DNA of 64,000 nt from Nonomuraea angiospora (GTDB lineage Bacteria > Actinomycetota > Actinomycetes > Streptosporangiales > Streptosporangiaceae), in the NCBI RefSeq assembly GCF_014873145.1, contig NZ_JADBEK010000001.1:3844001-3908000 (forward strand), written 5' to 3'. The notes below the pieces were generated by a model, which saw nothing but the letters and a program-made list of their open reading frames with translations, had not been told where the DNA came from and searched no databases. How positions within the stretch are numbered: the first letter of the stretch is position 1; the number at the start of each line of letters is the position of its first letter. The translations under genes were made by a program, and so were the position numbers. This document shows positions 1 to 11,871 of the stretch, piece by piece.

Positions 1-1671
1 GCCCAGGAGCTGGACGTGCGCCGCGGCGCGCTCGAAGCGCTCGGCCAGGTCGACCCGTTCCGGCTGCGGCGGGTGGTGGTCGGCCTGCCCGGCGACGTGC
101 ACGAGGCCGACCGGCTGGGCTTCGCCGGGCTCCTGGACCACCGCAGGGCGCAGCCGCGCAAGCCGTACGACAACATGACCGAGGCGCCGCCGCAACCGCG
201 GCCGATGCGCGACCGGCTGCTGCGCAAGACGCAGTGGACCGACCCCGAGGTCCAGGCCTCGATCGCCGACCAGGACACCTGGTACCTGTGGCGCAGCCAG
301 GGGCTCTGGCACCGGGCGTGGGCCGACCAGATGCCCCGCTGGGAGCCGCGCCGCAAGCAGCTCATCCGCGAGGTGCGCGAGTTCACGCAGGTCTTCGTCG
401 AGCACGCCGAGGCCGACGCCGAGCGCTTCGCGCGCCGGGCCGGCGAGCTCTACGAGACCCGCGTGGGCGTCTACCACCTGCTGCCGCCCGCGGGCGCGGA
501 GTCCTTCTACGACGCGGTCGTCCGCCGCTTCGTCGACGTCTTCGTCGCCCGGCAGCAGTTGCGCCCCACCGACGGGGAGGCCGCCGTGGCCAACGCGCTG
601 ATCGGCCCGGACGGCTGGCGGCACGCCTACGACCTGGCCTGGCGCACGGGCAAGCCGGCCGACGCGCTCACCTGGGTGCGCGACCGGCTCAAGCTGGAGG
701 TGAAGAAGCTCTTCAAGGACCAGGACGAGGCCGCCGCGCTGGGCGAGCGGCCGCTGCTGCCCTCCCTGGCCGACATCCTCGCCCAGGCCGCCTCTGGCGG
801 CGGCGACGACCCGCACGTGCGGCAGTTCCAGCTCAAGCTGGCCGACCTGGTGCCGGGCGGCTTCACCCCCGACGGCACCGGCGACCTGAAGGTGCTGGTC
901 TCGTATCCGGCGCCGGCCAAGGACCCGGCCCTCGAACGGTTCCTCAAGGACCGGATCGACCTGCCGGGCGTGCCCGACTTCCGCAACATCGACGCCGACT
1001 CGGTGACCGTGGTGCAGCTGCGCACCTCGATGAGCGTCACCCAGGTCCGCGAGCTGCGCGAAGTGCTGCACAGCTGGGCCGACGCGCTGCGCGACGAACG
1101 GCCGCAGGACCACCTGAAGTGGCGCCAGCGGCTCGGCTACGACTTCGGCTACCTGGCCACGACCGAGGAGCACCGCGTCCGGATCCTGCACCGGCTGCTC
1201 TGCCTGCTGTGGAACGGCCGGGTCAGCGTGGTGGAGGGCGAGCCGAGCTCGCCGTCGCGGATCCGGATCGACGTCGAGGGCGGGTCGATGACGCTCCCGC
1301 TGACCGGGTACGGCAAGGCCTCCTCCTGGCCGAGCATGCTGCGGGCCTACGAGCAGTGGGTGATCGCCGGCGACGAGGAGTTCCGCAGCCTGGTCAGCGA
1401 GCAGCTCATGGACGCCACGCCGAAGGGCCTGGCGGGCGCCCCCAGCGCGCCGGACCCGCTCTACCACCTCGTCACCGGCATGTCCGCCGACCAGCTCGGC
1501 CTGCTGGAGATCATGGTGCCCAAGCTGCCGTCGGGCGCGCGCAACCGCGCCGACCAGCTGATCGCCTTCTGGGCGCACACCCTGCCCGCCGCCCTCGACC
1601 TGCCCTTCGAGCGGGTCGCCGAGGCGGTCGCCTACAACCTGCGCGACCTGGACGCGCTCCTCGGGGAGTGA
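1..1671 (+). CDS. Large protein, 5'-truncated by window edge; possibly C-terminal part of a tubulin-like (Tubulin_2) protein
   Basis: The reading frame is open from the first base, so about 556 C-terminal residues are visible and the N-terminus lies outside the window. The visible part is mostly helical and charged, with no membrane segment, signal peptide or enzyme motif I can name. It is the first visible gene of a five-gene operon; its stop lies 2 bases before the next ATG. Operons with this neighbour set (pseudokinase, TRAFAC GTPase, tail-anchored partner) often begin with a large protein whose N-terminus is tubulin/FtsZ-like. The call rests on that context only, because the GTP-binding domain would be off the edge. 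Confidence is high for a gene and low for the family. Confidence 0.55.
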   Translation, partial: AQELDVRRGALEALGQVDPFRLRRVVVGLPGDVHEADRLGFAGLLDHRRAQPRKPYDNMTEAPPQPRPMRDRLLRKTQWTDPEVQASIADQDTWYLWRSQGLWHRAWADQMPRWEPRRKQLIREVREFTQVFVEHAEADAERFARRAGELYETRVGVYHLLPPAGAESFYDAVVRRFVDVFVARQQLRPTDGEAAVANALIGPDGWRHAYDLAWRTGKPADALTWVRDRLKLEVKKLFKDQDEAAALGERPLLPSLADILAQAASGGGDDPHVRQFQLKLADLVPGGFTPDGTGDLKVLVSYPAPAKDPALERFLKDRIDLPGVPDFRNIDADSVTVVQLRTSMSVTQVRELREVLHSWADALRDERPQDHLKWRQRLGYDFGYLATTEEHRVRILHRLLCLLWNGRVSVVEGEPSSPSRIRIDVEGGSMTLPLTGYGKASSWPSMLRAYEQWVIAGDEEFRSLVSEQLMDATPKGLAGAPSAPDPLYHLVTGMSADQLGLLEIMVPKLPSGARNRADQLIAFWAHTLPAALDLPFERVAEAVAYNLRDLDALLGE

Positions 1672-1673
1672 GC

Positions 1674-3509
1674 ATGGTCGTCGTGCTCGACCTGCGCAAG
1701 GGTGAGCTGGAGCGGCTCGGCGCCCAGGTCCTGGTGGTGGCCGACACCGAACGCCTGGCCGGCGCCCAGCAGGTGCTCCAGGACGTCTTCAGCTCACGCC
1801 TGGTCAGGTCGGTGCTCGTCCTGGCGGTGGGGCCCGACCTGCGCCTGCCCCCCGTCCTCGGCGGGGAGAGCCGCAGGGTGCTCTGGGTGAGCGACCCCTG
1901 CGGCATCCTGTGGAACGCCGACACCGGCGAGGCCGCCCACGGGCCCGGGGTGAGCGCGGAGGCCATCCTGATCGACCTGCTCACCCAGCCGGAGGTCTTC
2001 GACGAGGTGGTCAACAGCCTGGGCGACATCCCATACGGCACCGCCTCGCCCGGCTGGCGCATCGTGGCCGGGCGGATCGACCCCGAGGTGCTCGGCCAGG
2101 CCTTCCGCGAGGTGGCGGAACGCTTCGACGGGCCCGTCCAGCAGGACACGGCCACCTTCAGCTCGCCGCTGGCCACCGCGCTCCCCGTGCTCAGCGGCAC
2201 CGTCGACCTGCCCTCCGACCTCCTCGACGCGCTCGTACCGGACGGCCCGCTGCACCGGCTCCACCGTGACGCCGCCGAGCGGATCGACCAGGCGGTCCGC
2301 GCCCTGGACGACCTCGGCTACGTCCACGACGCCCGCGCCCGGGCCGCGGTCGTCGACAAGGTGATCGCCGCCGGGCGGGCGCTCGCCGAGTTCCGTGACA
2401 CCGTCGCGCGGCTCTTCGAGGAGATCGACCACACCGACGAGAACGCCGCCGAGCGGCTGGCCGCGCACGGGATCAGGTTCACCGTCCCCGCCGACATGGG
2501 CCACGCCCAGATCGCCGGCGAGCTGCGCGCCGACCTGGAGGCGGCCCTGGCCGAGCGCAAGAGCGTGCCGCGGATGGTCTCCCGCTTCCGCCTGCTGGCC
2601 GACCACAGCGCGCCCATCGGCAGCCGCGCCTTCGTCGCCGACCTCTGGCGGGCCTGCCCGGACGAGCTGCTCAACGCGCTGCACGCACCCGCCGAGTTCC
2701 CCGCCACGTTCCTGCCCCGCTTCGTCTTCTGGCGGCGCTCGCGGGCGTGGTGGCGCGAGCAGCTCTCACTCGGGCCGGCCAGGACCGCCCTCGACGACCT
2801 GCGCTCGATGCTCGAACGGGTCGCGGCCAGCGAGTGGATGCTCGGCCAGGCCCGCATGCACACCTCCGACGCCTCCCGCACGCTGGCGGCGGCGCTGAAC
2901 GAGATCTGCGCGCAGGTGTCCTGGACGCTGACCGACTGGAGCAAGGCCGAGACCGGCCAGGCCGCCGCGAGCCCGGCGCTCGACGAGGAGGTCACCGTAC
3001 GATTGCGCGACCGCGGCGGCCAGCTGCGCGAGGTCGTCACCGGCGACCTCGTCGACGCGGTCGCGAGCTGGCTGGAGCCCGCCTGGACCTCCCTCGAGCA
3101 GGGCGCCTACCGGGACGCGCAGGTGGGGCTGGAGCGCCGGGTCGACGAGACGCTGCGGCAGTACCGCTACCACCTGACCCACCGGGGCGTCCAGGAACGC
3201 CCCGACTTCGGCACCGGCGACACGGGCCGCCAGGAGCTCGTCGACGCGGTCTGGCGGCAGTCCCAGCAGGTCGTGCGCGCGCTGCGGGCCCAGGCCAACG
3301 GCCAGATGCTGCAACTGTGCGGCGACCGCGACCTGGCGATGCTGCTGCGGCAGGCGTACGCGGTGCGCTTCGCGCCCAGGGCCGTGCGGGGGCAGGGCAA
3401 CCCGCCCGACGTCGTGTGGACCCGGTCAGGACAGTACGCCGGCACCCTGCGGCTGGTGCCGCTGCGCCCCGGGACGGTCGAGGAGAACTGGAGCGAGGAT
3501 GGAACCTGA
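1674..3509 (+). CDS. Unknown helical protein of the GTPase/pseudokinase operon
   Basis: The protein has 611 residues and starts at an ATG 2 bases after the upstream stop. Its first 70 residues look like an alternating strand/helix fold (VVVLDLRKG..., VLVVADTE..., SVLVLAVGPD...), perhaps a degenerate Rossmann or toprim-like core. The rest is long, charged, mainly helical sequence without signal peptide or transmembrane segment. I recognise no catalytic motif. Its 3' end overlaps the pseudokinase gene by 11 bases, so the two are surely translated together. By position it could be a helical adaptor of the GTPase system. That is inference from context, and the function is unknown. Confidence 0.8.
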   Translation: MVVVLDLRKGELERLGAQVLVVADTERLAGAQQVLQDVFSSRLVRSVLVLAVGPDLRLPPVLGGESRRVLWVSDPCGILWNADTGEAAHGPGVSAEAILIDLLTQPEVFDEVVNSLGDIPYGTASPGWRIVAGRIDPEVLGQAFREVAERFDGPVQQDTATFSSPLATALPVLSGTVDLPSDLLDALVPDGPLHRLHRDAAERIDQAVRALDDLGYVHDARARAAVVDKVIAAGRALAEFRDTVARLFEEIDHTDENAAERLAAHGIRFTVPADMGHAQIAGELRADLEAALAERKSVPRMVSRFRLLADHSAPIGSRAFVADLWRACPDELLNALHAPAEFPATFLPRFVFWRRSRAWWREQLSLGPARTALDDLRSMLERVAASEWMLGQARMHTSDASRTLAAALNEICAQVSWTLTDWSKAETGQAAASPALDEEVTVRLRDRGGQLREVVTGDLVDAVASWLEPAWTSLEQGAYRDAQVGLERRVDETLRQYRYHLTHRGVQERPDFGTGDTGRQELVDAVWRQSQQVVRALRAQANGQMLQLCGDRDLAMLLRQAYAVRFAPRAVRGQGNPPDVVWTRSGQYAGTLRLVPLRPGTVEENWSEDGT

Positions 3510-4476
3510 GCCGCTGACCTTCTTCACTCCCGACGGCGACCGCGTGACCTGGGAGGTGGAGGCGGAGCCGGACCACGACCCCTTCGAGCGCCGGCTGACC
3601 CTCGTCGTCCAGGGCGCCAAGATCGTGCAGCGGCGGGTGCCCCGCGCGGAGGGGCGCGACCGCGACCACCTCTACGAGCTGCTGGAGAACGAGGCCCGGA
3701 TGGGCGCCAGGCTGCTCACCCGGCTGCGGCGGGCCTACCCCGTCGAGCTGCCCCGGCTGATGGGCTACAGCCTGGACGAGGAGGAGCCGTTCGTGCTGCT
3801 CTCCGACTACCGGGGCGAGCCGGTCACCCGCTTCGCCGGGGCGCTCCTGATCGCCGAGCAGCGGGCCCTGCAGGCGAGCCTCTTCCGCGCCGTGCGCATC
3901 CTGTCGGCCTGCGACATCGTCCACCGGCGCATCGACCCCGGCACCGTGCGCTGGGACGGCACCGCCGTGCAGCTCACCGACCTCAGCCACGCCACGCTGG
4001 CCGGCAGCCGCCGGCTGCGGCTGGGAGAGGCCCCCTACGCCGCTCCGGAGCAGCGCGCGGGCACCGGCCGCGCCGCCACCGCCGACGACCTCTGGAGCGC
4101 CGGCATGGTGATCTACCGCACCGTCACCGGGCGCGAGGTCGCCGACCGACCCGACCTCTCCGCCGCCCCGGCGCTGCAGCCCATCCACGACGTCTTCTCC
4201 GGCCAACCGCCGTCGGCGCTGGAGGTGCTCGACCGGCTGCGGGAGCCGGACCCGATGCGCTCCATCCCCGCCGAACCGGACCTGCGGCTCGAGGAGGGCC
4301 GCGTCGCCTTCGACCGGGCCCACGAAGCCAAGCGCGAGACCGAGGCCGAACCACCTCCGGCCGTCACCCGGATCGAGCAGGTGCCGCAGGAGCAGCCGCG
4401 GAAGTGGTGGGCCCGCTGGCTTCCGCTGGCCGTGCTGGCCGCCCTCGTCGTGGTCGTCTGGATGGTGATCCGGTGA
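3499..4476 (+). CDS. Tail-anchored Ser/Thr pseudokinase-like protein
   Basis: This 325-residue protein follows the Hanks kinase C-lobe but lacks the key residues. The catalytic loop reads HRRIDPGT at about 142-149 where HRDLKPxN is expected, so the catalytic Asp, Lys and Asn are all replaced. The metal-binding DFG is DLS at 161-163. An APE-like AAPEQ (181-185) and a DDLWSAGMVIY helix remain. No VAIK lysine is clear in the N-lobe. After a charged linker, residues 302-325 form one C-terminal transmembrane helix, so the domain faces the cytoplasm. The gene overlaps the upstream gene by 11 bases and the downstream GTPase by 4 (GTGA). It is probably a scaffold or nucleotide sensor, not an active kinase. 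Confidence 0.75.
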   Translation: MEPEPLTFFTPDGDRVTWEVEAEPDHDPFERRLTLVVQGAKIVQRRVPRAEGRDRDHLYELLENEARMGARLLTRLRRAYPVELPRLMGYSLDEEEPFVLLSDYRGEPVTRFAGALLIAEQRALQASLFRAVRILSACDIVHRRIDPGTVRWDGTAVQLTDLSHATLAGSRRLRLGEAPYAAPEQRAGTGRAATADDLWSAGMVIYRTVTGREVADRPDLSAAPALQPIHDVFSGQPPSALEVLDRLREPDPMRSIPAEPDLRLEEGRVAFDRAHEAKRETEAEPPPAVTRIEQVPQEQPRKWWARWLPLAVLAALVVVVWMVIR

Positions 4477-5477
4477 TCCTCTGCCCCATCTGCCTGCACG
4501 AGTTCGCCTGGAGCGAGGACGAGCTCTACGAACGCACCCCGGCGGGCCACTACCAGCGGCTCTCCCTGGAGAACGCGAGCGGGGCCCGCCGAGAGGACCT
4601 GCTGCGCGCCGCCCACGTCCGCTGCCCGGCGCCGGTGGCGGACCCGAGCCTCGAACACCACCTGCCCTACACCTACGTACGGCACGGCCGCCCGCTGGTG
4701 ATCGGGCTGGTCGGCGGGCCGGAGACGGGCAAGACCCACCTGCTGGCCTCGATGATCGGCGCCATCGAGCAGGGCGGCCTGCGGCCGTACGGGCTGACCG
4801 CGGACGCGGTGGACATCGAGCGGCACGCCGAGTACGTCAACACGTACGTGCATCCGCTGATGGTGGAGCGGACCGCGCTCTCGCGCACCACCCACCGGGC
4901 CACCGCCGAGCCCGCCGACGCGCTGCTCGTCAACGACGGCCGGCACACCACCGCGGTGGCGTTCTTCGACATCGCCGGCGAGCTGCTGCGCAGCTCCACC
5001 CACGAGGCGACCAGGTTCGTGCCGGCCGTCGGCGGGCTGCTCTTCGTGATCGACGCCGCCACCAGGTCGGCCAGGATGGGCGACGAGTCCTTCCGGGCCG
5101 TGCTCGACCGGCTGCCCAAGAGCGGCGGCCGGCTCGACATCCCCGCCGTCATCGCGGTCACCAAGAGCGACTCGGTGCGCTTCGAGGCGCCGGTCGACAC
5201 GTGGCTGTACGACGAGCCCGACCGGCTGGACCAGGTGGACGTCCTGCGGGAGAGCCGCGACGTCTACGCCTTCCTGCACCGGCGCGGCGCGCAGGCGTGG
5301 CTCAGCCCTTACGACAAATGCCGCAAGTGCACCCTGCATTTCGTCTCGGCGACAGGCTCCGCCCCGGCCGACGGGCGCTTCCCCAGGGGCGTGCGGCCGC
5401 GACGCGTCCTGGCGCCCCTGATCTCGCTCCTCGCGATGACCGGTGTCCTGCGCGGCTATCCGGAGGTGGGGATCTGA
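4473..5477 (+). CDS. TRAFAC-type P-loop GTPase with zinc-binding-like CxxC pairs (DO-GTPase2-like)
   Basis: The start is a GTG overlapping the upstream TGA, giving 334 residues. A complete GTPase motif set is visible: Walker A GGPETGKTH at about 81-89, a G3-like FFDIAGE near 164-170, TKSD at about 230 (G4, base recognition), and SATG near 291 (G5). A CPIC pair sits at residues 4-7 and a second CxxC at 282/285 just before G5; together they could bind zinc. The family best resembles the TRAFAC-clade GTPases of GTPase-associated conflict systems. It ends one base into the next ATG (TGATG). I expect it to be the switch of the operon, acting with the two tail-anchored partners at the membrane. Confidence 0.85.
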   Translation: MILCPICLHEFAWSEDELYERTPAGHYQRLSLENASGARREDLLRAAHVRCPAPVADPSLEHHLPYTYVRHGRPLVIGLVGGPETGKTHLLASMIGAIEQGGLRPYGLTADAVDIERHAEYVNTYVHPLMVERTALSRTTHRATAEPADALLVNDGRHTTAVAFFDIAGELLRSSTHEATRFVPAVGGLLFVIDAATRSARMGDESFRAVLDRLPKSGGRLDIPAVIAVTKSDSVRFEAPVDTWLYDEPDRLDQVDVLRESRDVYAFLHRRGAQAWLSPYDKCRKCTLHFVSATGSAPADGRFPRGVRPRRVLAPLISLLAMTGVLRGYPEVGI

Positions 5478-6886
5478 TGGGGCGTTACTCCAGCGTCGAC
5501 TGGATCCTGTTCGAGTGGGACGAGCGCCGCACCGGCCTCGGCCCCGTGCGCTCCTCCCTGGAGGACACCCGGGGCTGGTACCACCAGCTCGGGCCCTGGC
5601 TCGACCCCGGTCCCGCGCCCGGGGTCAGCCTCTGCCGGCTCATGGTCGACGGGCGCGTGGTGGTGCTGTCGCGCACGCGCACCGGCGGCTCGGACAGCAG
5701 GCGGACCATCCGGGTCCAGGCGTACCTGGGCGGCTCGGCCGCCAACGCCTCGGCGATGCCGAACGTCCGCCAGGCGCTCGCGCTCGCCCCCGGCTGGGGC
5801 TCGTTGCTGCCCGCCGACCCGGAGCCGCTCGACCTGGCCGTGCTGCTGCGCCCCTATGCCGACGCGAGCGCGGCACTCGACCGGCGGGCCCGCGCCGAGG
5901 CGGCGGCGCTCGCGCCGATCGTCTCCGAAGCGCTGCGCGGGCACCGGGAACCGCTGTCGGTGGCGGCCCAGGGGGAGGCCGTCGTGCAGCTGTGGGGGCT
6001 GGTGGACATCCTGGACCTGGTGCTCGGGCGCTATCCGGAGACCTTCTCCACCTACGAGAGCGACGACCTCAAGCAGGGGGCCGAGGTCATCTTCCTGCAG
6101 CAGTGGCCGGGGCCGTCGTCGCGGGCCGCGCACCGGCGGCGCGTGGATCTGCGGGCGCCCGACCAGAGCGACCTGTACGGCGAGATCGCGGCCATGGTCG
6201 TCGCGGCGTACGCGGACCGGCGGCTGCCGGGGCTGGTCAAGCGGCTGCGGATCCACGACGGGATGGCGCTGGAGGAGCGGGTCGAGCTGCTCGGGGCCGC
6301 CCTGCGCGAGCCGCCGAAGCCCGTACCGGCCGAGCCCCGGACACCTCCCCCTCCCGAGCCCGCAGAACCGGCGCCCGCTCCCCCGCCCTCGGCGTCCTCT
6401 CCCCCGCCACCGCCCCCGGCGTCGGCGGTGGCGTCGGGTCCGCGCAGGCGGGTGCCCTCGGAACGGCCCGGCCCCACGCCCGTGCCGCGGGAGGAGACGC
6501 CCGCGCCCGGGCCCAGCGCGCCGGTCTCGCCGCTGGCCCGCCCCGAGGCGCAGCCCGTCGCGGTGCGCGACGCCTTCGACTACTTCCTGGCGGAGCTGGC
6601 GGAGGCGACCACCGCCGGCGCGGCCCGGGGCATCCTGAGGGACGTCCACGCCTGGGCGCGGACGCGCCCGCCCGCCGACGTACGCTCCCGGCTGCACGCC
6701 CTGGTGCCCCAGCTGGAGCGGCTGCTGCCCGACGACGAGGTCAACCCGATCCTGCGCGACCTGCTGGACCCCGACGCCCCCGCCGAGGCCGTCAGGTCCG
6801 CCTGGCTCGATCCCCGCTGGCTCGTCCTGGCCGCGGTCCTGCTGGTCGTGCTCGTCCTCCAGGTCGTGACCACGGTCCTGCGGTGA
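5477..6886 (+). CDS. Tail-anchored GTPase-associated protein with proline-rich linker (GAP1-like N-terminus)
   Basis: The protein has 469 residues in three parts. An N-terminal globular domain (about 1-275, starting with YSSVDWILFEWDER) is followed by a Pro/Ala-rich disordered linker (about 278-361), a short helical domain, and a single hydrophobic C-terminal helix (447-469). There is no signal peptide, so the globular part is cytosolic and membrane-tethered. The N-terminal domain resembles my memory of GTPase-associated protein 1 domains, but only loosely. The start codon overlaps the GTPase stop by one base, so it is the last gene of the operon. It converges with the LuxR gene only 7 bases away. 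Confidence 0.75.
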   Translation: MGRYSSVDWILFEWDERRTGLGPVRSSLEDTRGWYHQLGPWLDPGPAPGVSLCRLMVDGRVVVLSRTRTGGSDSRRTIRVQAYLGGSAANASAMPNVRQALALAPGWGSLLPADPEPLDLAVLLRPYADASAALDRRARAEAAALAPIVSEALRGHREPLSVAAQGEAVVQLWGLVDILDLVLGRYPETFSTYESDDLKQGAEVIFLQQWPGPSSRAAHRRRVDLRAPDQSDLYGEIAAMVVAAYADRRLPGLVKRLRIHDGMALEERVELLGAALREPPKPVPAEPRTPPPPEPAEPAPAPPPSASSPPPPPPASAVASGPRRRVPSERPGPTPVPREETPAPGPSAPVSPLARPEAQPVAVRDAFDYFLAELAEATTAGAARGILRDVHAWARTRPPADVRSRLHALVPQLERLLPDDEVNPILRDLLDPDAPAEAVRSAWLDPRWLVLAAVLLVVLVLQVVTTVLR

Positions 6887-6893
6887 CCGCCGG

Positions 6894-9428
6894 TCAACCG
6901 GCCGGCCGGTTCAGGAGGGCGTCCAGGGCGGCGCGGTCGTTCACCCCGGTCTTGTCGTAGACGGCGTACAGGGTGTTGGCCACGGTGCGGACGGACACGA
7001 AGAGCCGCGCGGCGATCTCGCGGTTGGTCAGCCCCTGCGCGGCCAGCACCGCGATCTCGCGCTGCCGCGGCGTCAGGCTGGGCACGTCGAGGTCCATCAG
7101 CGCGAGCGTGCGGGCGCCCTGGCAGCGGTGCGCGAGCCGCCAGGCCCGGGTCTGCGCCGCCCGCGCCCCGCGCGCCAGCCCGGACTCGCGGTAGCGGGCC
7201 GCCGCCCGCGCCGCCGCCTCGGCCGCGTAGAGCAGCAGGCCGAGCCGCTCGAAACCCTCCGAGACCGCGTCGAGCTCCGCGCCGTCGCGAGCGGCGGCGT
7301 GCCGCGCGAACAGCGCCACCAGCGGGCCGTCCACGTCGAGCGCGGCCAGCCGCGCGGACACCAGGTCGGCGCGGCCCAGCCGGACGACGTCGTGCAGCAG
7401 GAACGGCACGTCGCACGGCAGCGCGCCCTCGGCGCTCTCCAGGCAGAGCTCGACGGCCCCGGCCGCGTCTCCGCGACCGGCCAGCGTCCACGCCCGGGCC
7501 AGGCGCAGCGGCACGACGACGGACGGACCGATCGGCGTCCCCGTCGCCTCCGCCCGCTCCAGCGCCTGCTCGGCCGCCGCGACCTCGCCGAGCAGCGCGT
7601 ACGCGTGCGCCAGCTCGCCCAGGCACGACCCCGCCAGCACGCTGCGATCGGGCAGCCGCGCGGCGGTGTCGCGCGCCCACGCGAGGGCGTCGGTCACCCG
7701 GCCGCGCAGCCGCAGCACGCGGGCCGTCCACGTGCCGAACTCCAGGTTCGCCCGCGTCCAGGTGTGGAAAGGCCCCTCCAGGCCGTACCCCTGCCCGGCG
7801 AACCGCTCGGCGGTGTCCAGATCGCCGAGCAGCAGCGCGGCGTGCGTGGCATGGCCGGTCAAGGCGGCCGAGAGGCTGCGCATGGCGACCGGCTCCTTCG
7901 CCAGGCCCGCGCCCATCTCCGCAGCGTGGGCCAGGCATTCCGCGGCCCGCCCCTGCGCCACCAGGACGGCCGCCTCGGCCCCGCTGATCATTCGCCTGCC
8001 GTGCGGGCTGAACGGGCCCATGTCCCGCGCCCGCGCCATCAGGTCCTCAGAGACGGCGATGTCGCCGGTCAGCGTGGCCAGGACGGCCCGCATGATGAGC
8101 GCCGCCTGCCGCGACTGAACCTCGTGGACGAGCCCGCTGGTCTCCTCCAGGACGGCCCGCGCCCGTGCGACGTCCCCGAGCCCGACGGCCAGGTTCATGG
8201 CCCGCTGCACCCCGAGATCGGTCCGGGCCGTCTCGCCCATCTCCGCCGCCCACGCGGTGGCGAACACCTCCTCGGCCTCGGCGTACCGGTCGGTGTAGAA
8301 CAGCACCGTGCCCAGCGCGGCCAGCGCGGGAGTCCCGCCGCCCGCGGCCACCGCCGCGCGCCCCAGCCGTACGGCCAGCTCCAGGTCCCGGATGACCCGG
8401 GCGCGCTCGCAGCCGGCCAACAGCAGCCCGGGATCGCCGGGCAGGCCGCCGTCCAGCCGCCAGACCGCCACCCTGAGCACGTCCTCGTGCCGCCGCAGCC
8501 CGGCCTCCGAGACCGCCTGCGCCAGGCGGCGCACCATCGTGCGGGCGCGCAGCACGCCGCAGCCGTCCCTGATGACCTCGCCGTACAGGGGGTGCGCGAG
8601 CCGCACCTGGAGCCGCCGGCCGTCCGGCTGCACCGTGACGAGCTGCCGGTCCTCCAGGTGCTGGACGGCGTCGAGCGACCCGAGTGCGGCCAGCAGGTCG
8701 GCGCCGAGCGGCTCGCCGTACGCCAGCAGCTCCAGCACCTCCCGCTCCCGCGCGGTCACCTCGCCGATGCGGCCCGCGACGGTCTCGCGCAGCGTGGGCG
8801 TGATCGTCAGCGGCCCGCTCCACCGCCACACGCCCCCGTCGGCGGCGAGCATGCCCGACAGCACGAGTTCGCGCAGGTAGAGGGCGTTGCCCTGGCTGAC
8901 GCGCCACAGCCGGGCCACGGTCGCCGACTCCACCCGGCCGCCCAGCGCGGCCTCCAGGACGGCCGCCGTCTCCTCCAGGGAGAACGGCTCCAGCTCCAGC
9001 CGCGGCACCAGATCGTCCTTCCACAGCGCGAGCACCGCGTCCGGCACGGGCGTCCGGCTGCGCAGCGTCGCGATCACCCGGGTGCCGTCCCGCGTCACGA
9101 GATGGTGGACGAGCGCGGCGGAGACCGGATCGAGCAGGTGGGCGTCGTCCACCACCAGCACCGGCACGCGCAGCGCGGCGGCCGCCCAGCCCAGCGGGTT
9201 CCCTGCGGGCGGTGTGGCGGGGAGCAGCGGGGCGAAGGCGCCCAGCGGGACCTCCGCCGCGGCCGTGGTGGCCCGCGCCCAGGCGACCCCGTCCAGACCG
9301 CGCACCGCCTGCGCCGCCAGCCGGCTCTTGCCCGTGCCCGGCGGACCGGCCACGACCACGCCCCTGGAGGCGGACCTGATCTCCGACAATTGCGCCGCAC
9401 GCCCGATGAACGGCCAGGAGCCTGCCAC
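6894..9428 (-). CDS. LuxR-family regulator with AAA ATPase and TPR-like region (LAL/MalT type)
   Basis: This large regulator of about 844 residues has a Walker A GPPGTGKS at 28-35 after the typical F-I-G-R-x2-Q/E-L lead-in. A VLVVDDAHLLD Walker B, a long all-helical TPR-like middle and a C-terminal LuxR HTH (TPRQREIAVLAAQGLTNREIA...) follow. It should couple ATP and ligand binding to transcription activation. I chose the GTG that gives VAGSWPFIGR. No Shine-Dalgarno precedes it, so the mRNA may be leaderless; an in-frame ATG at 9485 is the alternative. It is divergent from the APH-type kinase gene. Longer upstream extensions of the frame are only the shadow of that gene. Confidence 0.9.
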   Translation of the reverse strand: MAGSWPFIGRAAQLSEIRSASRGVVVAGPPGTGKSRLAAQAVRGLDGVAWARATTAAAEVPLGAFAPLLPATPPAGNPLGWAAAALRVPVLVVDDAHLLDPVSAALVHHLVTRDGTRVIATLRSRTPVPDAVLALWKDDLVPRLELEPFSLEETAAVLEAALGGRVESATVARLWRVSQGNALYLRELVLSGMLAADGGVWRWSGPLTITPTLRETVAGRIGEVTAREREVLELLAYGEPLGADLLAALGSLDAVQHLEDRQLVTVQPDGRRLQVRLAHPLYGEVIRDGCGVLRARTMVRRLAQAVSEAGLRRHEDVLRVAVWRLDGGLPGDPGLLLAGCERARVIRDLELAVRLGRAAVAAGGGTPALAALGTVLFYTDRYAEAEEVFATAWAAEMGETARTDLGVQRAMNLAVGLGDVARARAVLEETSGLVHEVQSRQAALIMRAVLATLTGDIAVSEDLMARARDMGPFSPHGRRMISGAEAAVLVAQGRAAECLAHAAEMGAGLAKEPVAMRSLSAALTGHATHAALLLGDLDTAERFAGQGYGLEGPFHTWTRANLEFGTWTARVLRLRGRVTDALAWARDTAARLPDRSVLAGSCLGELAHAYALLGEVAAAEQALERAEATGTPIGPSVVVPLRLARAWTLAGRGDAAGAVELCLESAEGALPCDVPFLLHDVVRLGRADLVSARLAALDVDGPLVALFARHAAARDGAELDAVSEGFERLGLLLYAAEAAARAAARYRESGLARGARAAQTRAWRLAHRCQGARTLALMDLDVPSLTPRQREIAVLAAQGLTNREIAARLFVSVRTVANTLYAVYDKTGVNDRAALDALLNRPAG

Positions 9429-9495
9429 GGCGAAAGCGTATTTGAGTAGGCCATGCTCATGCGAGCGAGTTGTCCCGCCCGCCATGCTGGGGCCC

Positions 9496-10593
9496 ATGAC
9501 CATGGCGCCGACCACCGGCCTGACGGACCTCGTACGCGAGAGCCTCGGCGACCCCCTCGCCGAGATCGCCGACCAGCACGTCGACCTCCTCGACTCCGGC
9601 CCGGGGGCGTTGTCGACGACCTCGCTCCACCGCGTGCGCGGCACCACGACCGGCGGCATGAGCTGGTCGTTCTTCGTCAAGGCGATCCACGAGATCAGGC
9701 ACTCGCCCGGGTACGCGGACATCCCCGAACCGCTGCGCGCCACCGCGCTCGCGCACTTCCCCTGGCGGGCCGACGCGGACATCTACCTGGCCCGCCCCCG
9801 GCTCCCCGGCGGGCTGCGCCTGCCCCGGATGTACCGGCTGGACGACCTGGGCGACGACCGGCTCGTCATGTGGCTGGAGGACGTGCGGGTCGCGCCCGCC
9901 GCCTGGGACCTGGACCGCTACCGCGCCGCCGCCCGCCGGCTCGGCGACCTGGCCGCCGCACAGCCCGTCGCGGGCCGTACGTCCGCGCCGCGCGAGCCGC
10001 TCAACCGCGGCCTGCGCTACTACTGCGGGGGCCCGCTCGCCAACCTGTTCCTGCCCACCCTGCGCGACCCGGCGACGTGGCGGCACCCGCTGATCGCCGC
10101 GAACGCCGACCCCCTGCTGCAGGCCGACCTGCTGGCCCTCGCCGACCACATCGACCCGCTGCTGGACGCCCTGGACCGCCTCCCCCACACCCTCGTCCAC
10201 GGCGACGCGAGCCCCTCGAACCTGCTGATCCCGGCCGACGGCTCGGCGGAGTTCGTGGCCATCGACTGGAGCTGGCCGTACCCGGCGGCCGTCGGCTTCG
10301 ACCTCGGCCAGCTCCTCGTCGGCCGCGCCCACACCGGCGAACTCGACCCCGCAGACCTGCCCGCCGTCCACGAGACGATCGAGGCCGCGTACACCGCCGC
10401 GGTGGCCGGCCTCGCCGACCCCGCCGAGGTCTCCTTCGGCTACGCCGCCACCCTCGTGCTGCGCAGCGCCTGGACCGCGATCCCCTTTGAACGCCTGGGC
10501 CAGGCGCCCACCCCCGAGCTGCACGACCTGTTCCGCAAGCGGGCCCGGCTCGCGCGGTTCGTCGTCGACCTGGGCCGCTCCCTGCTCCCTTAG
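9496..10593 (+). CDS. Aminoglycoside phosphotransferase (APH)-family kinase
   Basis: The 365-residue protein has the APH/choline-kinase signature. The Brenner-type catalytic loop HGDASPSN lies at about 235-242, and the metal-binding IDW at about 257 is followed by the usual GFDLGQLL. It transfers phosphate from ATP to a small hydroxylated substrate. Many members are not resistance enzymes, so the substrate is unknown. The start is an ATG behind a weak GGGG; ATG at 9502 is equally possible. It diverges from the LuxR-type regulator with about 70 bases between them, which suggests that regulator controls it. Confidence 0.85.
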   Translation: MTMAPTTGLTDLVRESLGDPLAEIADQHVDLLDSGPGALSTTSLHRVRGTTTGGMSWSFFVKAIHEIRHSPGYADIPEPLRATALAHFPWRADADIYLARPRLPGGLRLPRMYRLDDLGDDRLVMWLEDVRVAPAAWDLDRYRAAARRLGDLAAAQPVAGRTSAPREPLNRGLRYYCGGPLANLFLPTLRDPATWRHPLIAANADPLLQADLLALADHIDPLLDALDRLPHTLVHGDASPSNLLIPADGSAEFVAIDWSWPYPAAVGFDLGQLLVGRAHTGELDPADLPAVHETIEAAYTAAVAGLADPAEVSFGYAATLVLRSAWTAIPFERLGQAPTPELHDLFRKRARLARFVVDLGRSLLP

Positions 10594-11529: not shown

Positions 11530-11871
11530 TCAGTGGGCCGCCTCGTACTGCTCCACGACAGTGGCGGCGATGCGGCCACGCTCGCTCACCGGCAGCCCCT
11601 GAGCCTTCGCCCACCGCCTGATCTCAGTGGACTTCTCACGGGTGACGGCCCGCGAAGTGCCGGCGCCACCGCGCCTGCCGCGAACACCTCGCTCGGCGCG
11701 GACCGCGCGAGCCTTGGTGATAAAGGGAGCGAGAGCCTTCTCCAGCTTCTCCCGGTTAGAGCCCGACAGGTCGATCTCGTAGCTGGTGCCGTCGAGAGCG
11801 AACCTTGTGGTCCCCTCGGCGTCACTGCCGTCGATGTCATCGACAAAGGACTCAACAATGCGTTTCGCCAT
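11530..11871 (-). CDS. lsr2: Lsr2-family nucleoid-bridging protein
   Basis: The 113-residue protein matches Lsr2. It has an N-terminal dimerisation sheet (FALDGTSYEIDLS) followed by helical EKLEKALAPFITKARAV. A basic Gly/Arg-rich linker leads to a C-terminal DNA-binding domain (IRRWAKAQGLPVSERGRI) with the AT-hook-like RGR. Lsr2 binds AT-rich DNA and silences acquired genes in actinomycetes. Streptomycetes and relatives often carry a second copy near foreign DNA; whether this is the main copy cannot be told. The start ATG follows a modest GGAGCA-like site. It lies beside a block of decayed genes and a long gene-free stretch. Confidence 0.95.
   Translation of the reverse strand: MAKRIVESFVDDIDGSDAEGTTRFALDGTSYEIDLSGSNREKLEKALAPFITKARAVRAERGVRGRRGGAGTSRAVTREKSTEIRRWAKAQGLPVSERGRIAATVVEQYEAAH

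Follow-up and report, generated by a model that had tools for sequence, protein, structure and literature searches.

Six consecutive plus-strand genes, designated A to F, lie across the left edge of a 64,000-base stretch of the 13.09-Mb single-contig genome of Nonomuraea angiospora (G000:C1:3844001-3908000; hereafter the window, whose numbering is used throughout, with negative positions for bases before its first letter). The operon runs from -3657 to 6886 and is cut by the window edge. Judged from its gene content, it is a genuine six-gene system, conserved between genomes: a variant within the predicted class of tubulin-type DO-GTPase/GAP1 systems, overlapping with the FtsZl1 operons. We favour, at a probability of roughly 0.55, the reading that the operon is a form of the tubulin-type systems predicted for immunity-like conflict, with the products of A to F joined in a single membrane-associated signalling complex; an immune role for the operon is likely, and the formation of the complex and the order of events within it are proposed here. 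The earlier note on the window, made from its letters alone, had guessed at a GTPase-associated conflict system, a guess supported by the domains of B, E and F and by the conserved neighbourhood.

The tubulin component is gene B, whose product matched the Pfam family Tubulin_2 over residues 9-401 of 1036 (201.7 bits, E-value 2.7e-59), the one such match in the genome. It has the motifs GLGGTG at residue 11 and GGTGSG at residue 199, and GGTGxG was kept in 92 of 93 B sequences (motif totals for the A, B, D and E sequence sets include about six duplicate genomes fetched under second ids). The earlier note had seen B only as a large protein cut by the window edge; extension to the left gave the complete protein (Table 1), and a further gene, A, was found before it.

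The best Pfam match of E was DO-GTPase2, a model matched at an E-value of 0.01 by 36 of 37 aligned E members. An ordinary housekeeping GTPase was rejected, the MMR_HSR1 match reaching just 14.1 bits (cut-off 21.9). The motifs of E are CPIC, Walker A GGPETGKT, FFDIAGE (residue 164), TKSD and SATG; Walker A and K-x-D were kept in 100 of 100 E sequences, and FDx.GE in 90 of 100. C3, C6, C50 and H61 are invariant in the 37 aligned sequences, an N-terminal cysteine/histidine set that looks like a zinc ribbon. Among solved structures, Arl-type GTPases matched E (E-value 1.4e-5); structure-homologue searches gave no convincing match for A, B, C or F.

Gene D had been called a pseudokinase, and this is borne out. 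Its Pfam Pkinase score (25.0 bits, E-value 1.4e-5) is below the cut-off of 31.7, and the HRD aspartate position holds arginine. The HRD aspartate is missing in 92 of the 93 aligned D sequences having a residue there (aspartate in 1 of 93), and the DFG position holds aspartate in 44 of 93. Since the HRD loss is family-wide, D represents a pseudokinase family and not one degraded gene, and by its residues it would be catalytically dead.

The start motif of the F proteins resembles the GAP1-N2 start. For comparison, an F profile was made from the N-terminal 360 residues of 92 genes following E, with near-identical starts removed (five downstream genes were dropped from the list before alignment, one of which, L099_4, later looks like F), and a GAP1 profile was made from the N-terminal 360 residues of 33 proteins (about six of them duplicates) reached via Pfam GAP1-N2. 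In hhalign, F aligned with GAP1 at a probability of 96.4 and an E-value of 1.1e-9, over 208 columns across GAP1-N2 and GAP1-M; the controls gave E-values of 0.24 (reversed GAP1), 0.37 (A), 0.74 (B) and 0.75 (C). The reciprocal alignment of GAP1 to F gave 1.5e-9, with controls at 0.11 to 0.97. These comparisons support F as a remote GAP1-N2/M homologue, the relation being visible profile-to-profile only. The GAP1 relationship raised by the earlier note is thus found between profiles and is not detected in F by Pfam; its label for F, a tail-anchored linker protein, was right about the anchor and too modest about the rest.

Gene A has a metal-ion-dependent adhesion site (MIDAS) motif, DESGS, at residue 44, and DxSxS was kept in 72 of 87 A sequences; Pfam at E-values up to 1 found vWA, and no FNIII model matched. 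A has a hydrophobic N-terminus and an internal helix at residue 588. A Kyte-Doolittle scan found the single C-terminal hydrophobic helices of D and F, the two tail anchors noticed previously, and with A as the third, three of the six products are predicted to be membrane-bound.

Gene C had no match in Pfam, NCBIfam or PADLOC at E-values up to 1, and no Pfam family was matched by more than one of 55 C family members. It was chosen by the composition-based gene caller; A, B, D, E and F have coding-like codon-position G+C. Most close database relatives of C are 611 amino acids (aa) long, in agreement with the alternative start at ATG 1674. In a hydropathy table, C had predicted transmembrane (TM) segments in other genera (e.g., L059, L084, L093) and none in the Nonomuraea/Spongiactinospora clade, where C is without the hydrophobic segment carried elsewhere. 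We considered that the membrane anchor might have moved from C to D, but in several genera both proteins carry helices, and the idea was given up. C was also rejected as a homologue of the third gene in a canonical tubulin/GAP1-N2 locus (hhalign E-values 0.87 and 0.7, a weak test in which each comparison was made against one sequence).

The C-terminal half of B and genes C to F were where the earlier note had put them, all on the plus strand, with its overlaps of 11 bases for C/D (3499-3509), 4 bases for D/E (4473-4476) and 1 base for E/F (5477). With GTG 1668 as the start of C, genes B and C share 4 bases (1668-1671); 7 bases separate the end of A from B.

Table 1. Positions of the operon genes (window numbering) and of the additional DNA beside the operon in Nonomuraea jabiensis.
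Feature	Position	Strand	Description	Support
Gene A	-3657 to -1447	+	predicted secreted vWA membrane protein, 736 aa	Pfam VWA_2 45.4 bits
Gene B	-1439 to 1671 (L009:14561-17671; in window 1..1671, the C-terminal half)	+	Tubulin_2/FtsZ-like, 1036 aa, then long C-terminal region	
Gene C	1668..3509	+	613 aa (611 from ATG 1674), family without Pfam model	
Gene D	3499..4476	+	325 aa pseudokinase, C-terminal TM helix at residue 306	
Gene E	4473..5477	+	334 aa DO-GTPase2-like GTPase, N-terminal zinc-ribbon-like cysteines	
Gene F	5477..6886	+	469 aa probable remote GAP1-N2/GAP1-M homologue, followed by a proline-rich linker and a C-terminal part; TM helix at residue 449	
N. jabiensis extra stretch	G010:C1:12044046-12059495 (L191, L189)		VMAP-C/AAA/CHAT module upstream of operon	

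The six genes travel together. Among 59 genomes (N. angiospora included), E was matched in 12 and Tubulin_2 in 10, and all 10 have E within 7 kb; within the genus, Tubulin_2 was found in 9 of 36 genomes. E occurs without tubulin in two genomes, G006 and G018. The E match of G018 is weak and lies in an HSP70-type system; the G006 locus (L042) has D, E, an F-like gene and a two-TM protein, with no tubulin, vWA or C, and this minimal relative suggests that D-E-F is the core. The six-gene form was intact in seven other loci compared by BLAST. Tubulin_2 was found in 13 genomes of a class-wide sample of 246: nine had E of the A-F type in the fetched stretches, one contig was cut after B, G217 is a canonical GAP1-N2 locus, and no E was seen in G145 and G116 (in G116 no genes at all were called). 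Searching named genomes with the E alignment brought up 147 relatives, the nearest being N. jabiensis DSM 45507 (E 99% identical). The best 80 of the 147 loci were retained; they come from Nonomuraea, Streptomyces, Actinoplanes, Actinomadura, Pseudonocardiaceae, Frankiaceae and other taxa. Of these 80 loci, 70 have A, 74 have B, 77 have C, 74 have D and 75 have F. All six are together in 59, which is above chance and is the conserved neighbourhood that the earlier note would lead one to expect. Locus genes were called by a composition-based script that missed or shortened some (none called in L167), and some loci stop at contig edges.

D is fused to E in 34 of the 80 loci, and in 6 E carries an F-like domain. 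Mapped onto a tree of 92 E domains, the D-E fusion requires 6 changes (5 without the contig-edge row L074) and the F-E fusion requires 3; repeated fusion of two different partners to E argues that D, E and F act together. In Pseudonocardia lacus (L114) there are two tandem E-type GTPases, the second with an F-like N-domain. A phage origin was rejected, with no viral_contigs match in a scan with E alone, which reaches close relatives only. A plasmid origin was also rejected, the sole 'plasmid' match being an 11.85-Mb Nonomuraea gerenzanensis record (NZ_LT559118.1), which is filed as 'plasmid I' yet is chromosome-sized. A histidine-kinase-like gene adjoins the operon in some genus genomes and is far away in G000 and G010, which may reflect relocation of the operon inside the genus.

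Kaur et al. 2020 (PMC7159879) describe computationally predicted DO-GTPase/GAP1 conflict systems, in which GAP1 is often TM-fused, and among them an actinobacterial tubulin theme. The A-F operon is like that theme in its DO-GTPase with a putative zinc ribbon, adjacent GAP1-like protein with a C-terminal TM helix, single tubulin gene with an extended C-terminal region, membrane vWA protein and patchy neighbourhood, and E fits their DO-GTPase definition, a TRAFAC clade with a glutamate in the Walker B region, that of FFDIAGE. It is unlike the theme in that the putative GAP1-N2 of F is remote and below Pfam detection; in the addition of C and of pseudokinase D, often fused to the GTPase; and in the co-occurrence of VMAP-C in 4 of 10 genomes. 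Their theme 3 joins a kinase, PP2C and a standalone vWA with GAP1-N2, and one genome of the genus (G003) has PP2C and a standalone vWA downstream of A-F. In the published account theme 3 has a catalytically active kinase and the themes do not overlap, whereas G003 and G023 combine tubulin, pseudokinase and theme-3-type genes. Relative to the consulted passages of Kaur et al., the pseudokinase, C, the divergence of GAP1, PycTM and the adjacency of VMAP are new. GASH and GAP1-N1 were not among the Pfam matches of A-F at E-values up to 1, the library's content for both models being unconfirmed. Kaur theme 2, in which GAP1-N2 is accompanied by DO-GTPase and an HSP70-like gene, was seen in L043 (G018), L044 (G029) and L178 (G279), and G029 carries both such a system and an A-F operon.

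The second precedent leads to the main rival explanation. Makarova and Koonin 2010 (PMC2875224) describe FtsZl1/vWA/kinase/GTPase operons, predicted computationally to remodel membranes, and the A-F operon likewise brings together FtsZl1 (Tubulin_2) with an FtsZ-type GTP loop, vWA, kinase and a diverged GTPase, the kinase here being below the Pfam cut-off; the consulted parts of that paper make no mention of an inactive kinase, GAP1 or Pycsar effectors. A reviewer in the same paper names a Micromonospora vWA gene, so the set probably included relatives of the A-F locus. Tubulin_2 proteins are set aside as divergent in an FtsZ/tubulin paper of 2023 (PMC9871819). As a membrane-remodelling or cytoskeletal machine, B would polymerise under the membrane, E and F regulate it, A anchor it to the wall and D act as scaffold, shaping hyphae, spores or vesicles with no conflict role. 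This prediction, the three putative membrane-bound products and the kept GGTGxG of B speak for such a machine; against it, the operon is in only 9 of 36 genus genomes, and some relatives have PycTM, VMAP-C, CHAT and cyclase-like neighbours, a patchiness and a company of genes that count for the conflict reading. We consider remodelling unlikely, while regarding it as the strongest competitor.

We examined the neighbours of the operon for effectors. Beside the N. angiospora operon none was recognised among the neighbours searched, which were only some of them; the earlier statement that no enzyme output is visible holds for this genome, and a candidate effector is present only in some relatives. 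That candidate is PycTM, the membrane effector family of the anti-phage system Pycsar (PycC + PycTM). It was searched for in 50 of the 80 loci; the remaining 30 were L050-L058, which are the Nonomuraea/Spongiactinospora clade, and 21 loci that included near-copies and contig-edge cases. Of the 50, PycTM was directly upstream of A on the same strand in 22, all of them Streptomycetaceae, with 27 to 1018 bases from the end of PycTM to the called start of A; for four of these (L076, L093, L113, L124) contig identity was taken from coordinates alone. A crude expectation, which assumes an even gene spread, is 0.004 against the 22 observed. L170 also has PycTM at the operon (58.5 bits, cut-off 27.2). 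The sole PycTM match in N. angiospora is at 9.41 Mb, about 5.6 Mb from the operon. Unlike Pycsar, no confident pyrimidine cyclase was found, the best PycC match being 12.5 bits among the few neighbours scanned, and A-F have no PycTM or cyclase match in Pfam.

Within the genus, the operon of G003 (L187) is followed by a cyclase-like gene, a STAND-like P-loop gene, PP2C (55 bits), a TM protein, a standalone vWA (28.1 bits), two tetratricopeptide repeat (TPR) proteins with cyclase-like starts, a cyclic nucleotide (cNMP)-binding Crp-like regulator (77.6 bits) and, on the other strand, PycTM (49.1 bits). Gene order in G023 (L188) is like that of the G003 island, Pfam having been run on L187 only; the names STAND-like and cyclase-like come from weak matches in other loci (nSTAND3 19.2 bits; PycC 12.5 bits) and from reading of the sequence.

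In a more specific and tentative version of the signalling complex, the dead kinase would have become the dedicated partner of the GTPase, and the switch, based on tubulin, would set off a membrane effector of the Pycsar type. Such a signalosome (vWA sensing, GTP-driven assembly, membrane permeabilisation) would act with VMAP-CHAT modules and not replace them. We hold this version to be possible at well under even odds, an estimate lowered slightly because all 22 PycTM cases are Streptomycetaceae.

To either side of the operon, the long alignments between N. angiospora and N. jabiensis (G010) have 92-96% identity (86% in one piece of 203 bases). Next to A, N. jabiensis has 15,449 bases in the place of the 68 bases at -3904 to -3836. 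Genes in this additional stretch are for VMAP-C/trypsin (105.2 bits), Trypco1 (65.1), AAA ATPase (38.2; MoxR-type by reading), CHAT (30.8) and vWA-TM (28.7) proteins, along with one DO-GTPase-like gene whose score of 18.7 is below cut-off; the 795-aa protein of the module was rejected as another GAP1 (E-value 0.026). A VMAP-C match and a like gene order are upstream of A in G004 (L190:1049-14418). VMAP-C scored above cut-off in 4 of the 10 Tubulin_2-bearing genomes among the 59 searched (G003, G004, G010 and G055); in G004 and G010 it lies upstream of the operon at a distance of about 5 kb. Actinobacterial tubulin and VMAP systems were stated to be mutually exclusive (Kaur et al. 2020, PMC7159879); contrary to this, the two co-occur in four genomes. 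The N. angiospora genome has no VMAP-C and, taken alone, fits the exclusivity rule.

The 15.4-kb stretch may have been lost in N. angiospora or gained in N. jabiensis. Loss would agree with the notion that an ancestor had a larger island of which N. angiospora kept an inert core, as would the failure to recognise an effector beside the operon. The six frames are nevertheless open with coding-like composition, and the same six-gene form is intact in the seven other BLAST-compared loci; a stripped remnant is the least probable of the explanations.

As a signalling complex, the operon might work as follows. The extracellular vWA domain of A would bind a ligand or damaged envelope component and pass a conformational signal inward; dead kinase D would serve as an allosteric adaptor setting the nucleotide state of GTPase E, and GAP1-like F would couple E to the membrane. 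The output in many Streptomycetaceae would likely be the PycTM effector encoded directly upstream. In N. angiospora, since no effector was recognised beside the operon, the output could be the B/C assembly itself or a product encoded elsewhere, such as its distant PycTM.

The vWA ectodomain could instead read the state of the cell wall, with the GTPase adjusting gene expression or wall enzymes, making the operon an envelope-stress or developmental sensor. The DESGS motif behind a hydrophobic N-terminus would suit this role, as would the flanking genes, a TetR-like gene upstream on the same strand and a long LuxR-like regulator gene convergent to the operon at 6894-9782 (both named from reading of the sequence); the flanking genes differ, however, between most compared loci, and Pfam found no DNA-binding domain in A-F. 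We regard a sensor of this kind as improbable, more so than remodelling.

Several results weigh against a conflict-type signalling complex. The DO-GTPase2 score of E, 25.5 bits, is just below the Pfam cut-off of 27. Pfam gave no GAP1 match in 47 F members and nothing for F itself; a hidden Markov model of F matched 0 of 6 canonical GAP1 proteins at an E-value of 1e-3, and F against the single canonical GAP1 protein L165_4 gave 0.14. No FNIII or HRDC Pfam match was found in A-F for the separate FNIII/HRDC protein of the Kaur tubulin theme. In PADLOC, D matched solely models of the kinase type, and E had just a weak match to mad8 (14.8 bits). PycTM was absent upstream of A in the other 28 of the 50 genomes, and it adjoins the operon in 0 of 7 own-clade genomes searched. 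The FtsZl1 relatives were predicted to remodel membranes (PMC2875224). In one Streptomyces clade the operon is beside arginine-metabolism genes in 13 loci (gene names by reading), a constancy that looks like stable inheritance. No experimental study of this operon type was found among the listed matches of full-text literature searches, which cover few subscription papers.

Two observations concern the surroundings. About 2.9 kb at -9025 to -6086 (L009:6975-9914), with two predicted membrane-protein genes, correspond to 82 bases in N. jabiensis. On the minus strand at 11530-11871 is a 113-aa protein that reads by eye like the nucleoid protein Lsr2.

The analysis defines a clean six-gene core in which two families, C and the GAP1-like F, go unrecognised by Pfam. 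A pseudokinase repeatedly fused to the switch GTPase, together with a candidate PycTM effector in Streptomycetaceae, makes the function of tubulin-type DO-GTPase systems testable. Genomes with both tubulin and VMAP systems contradict the stated exclusivity of the two system types, and the closely related species pair that differs by a 15.4-kb VMAP-module stretch at the operon edge constitutes a natural experiment.

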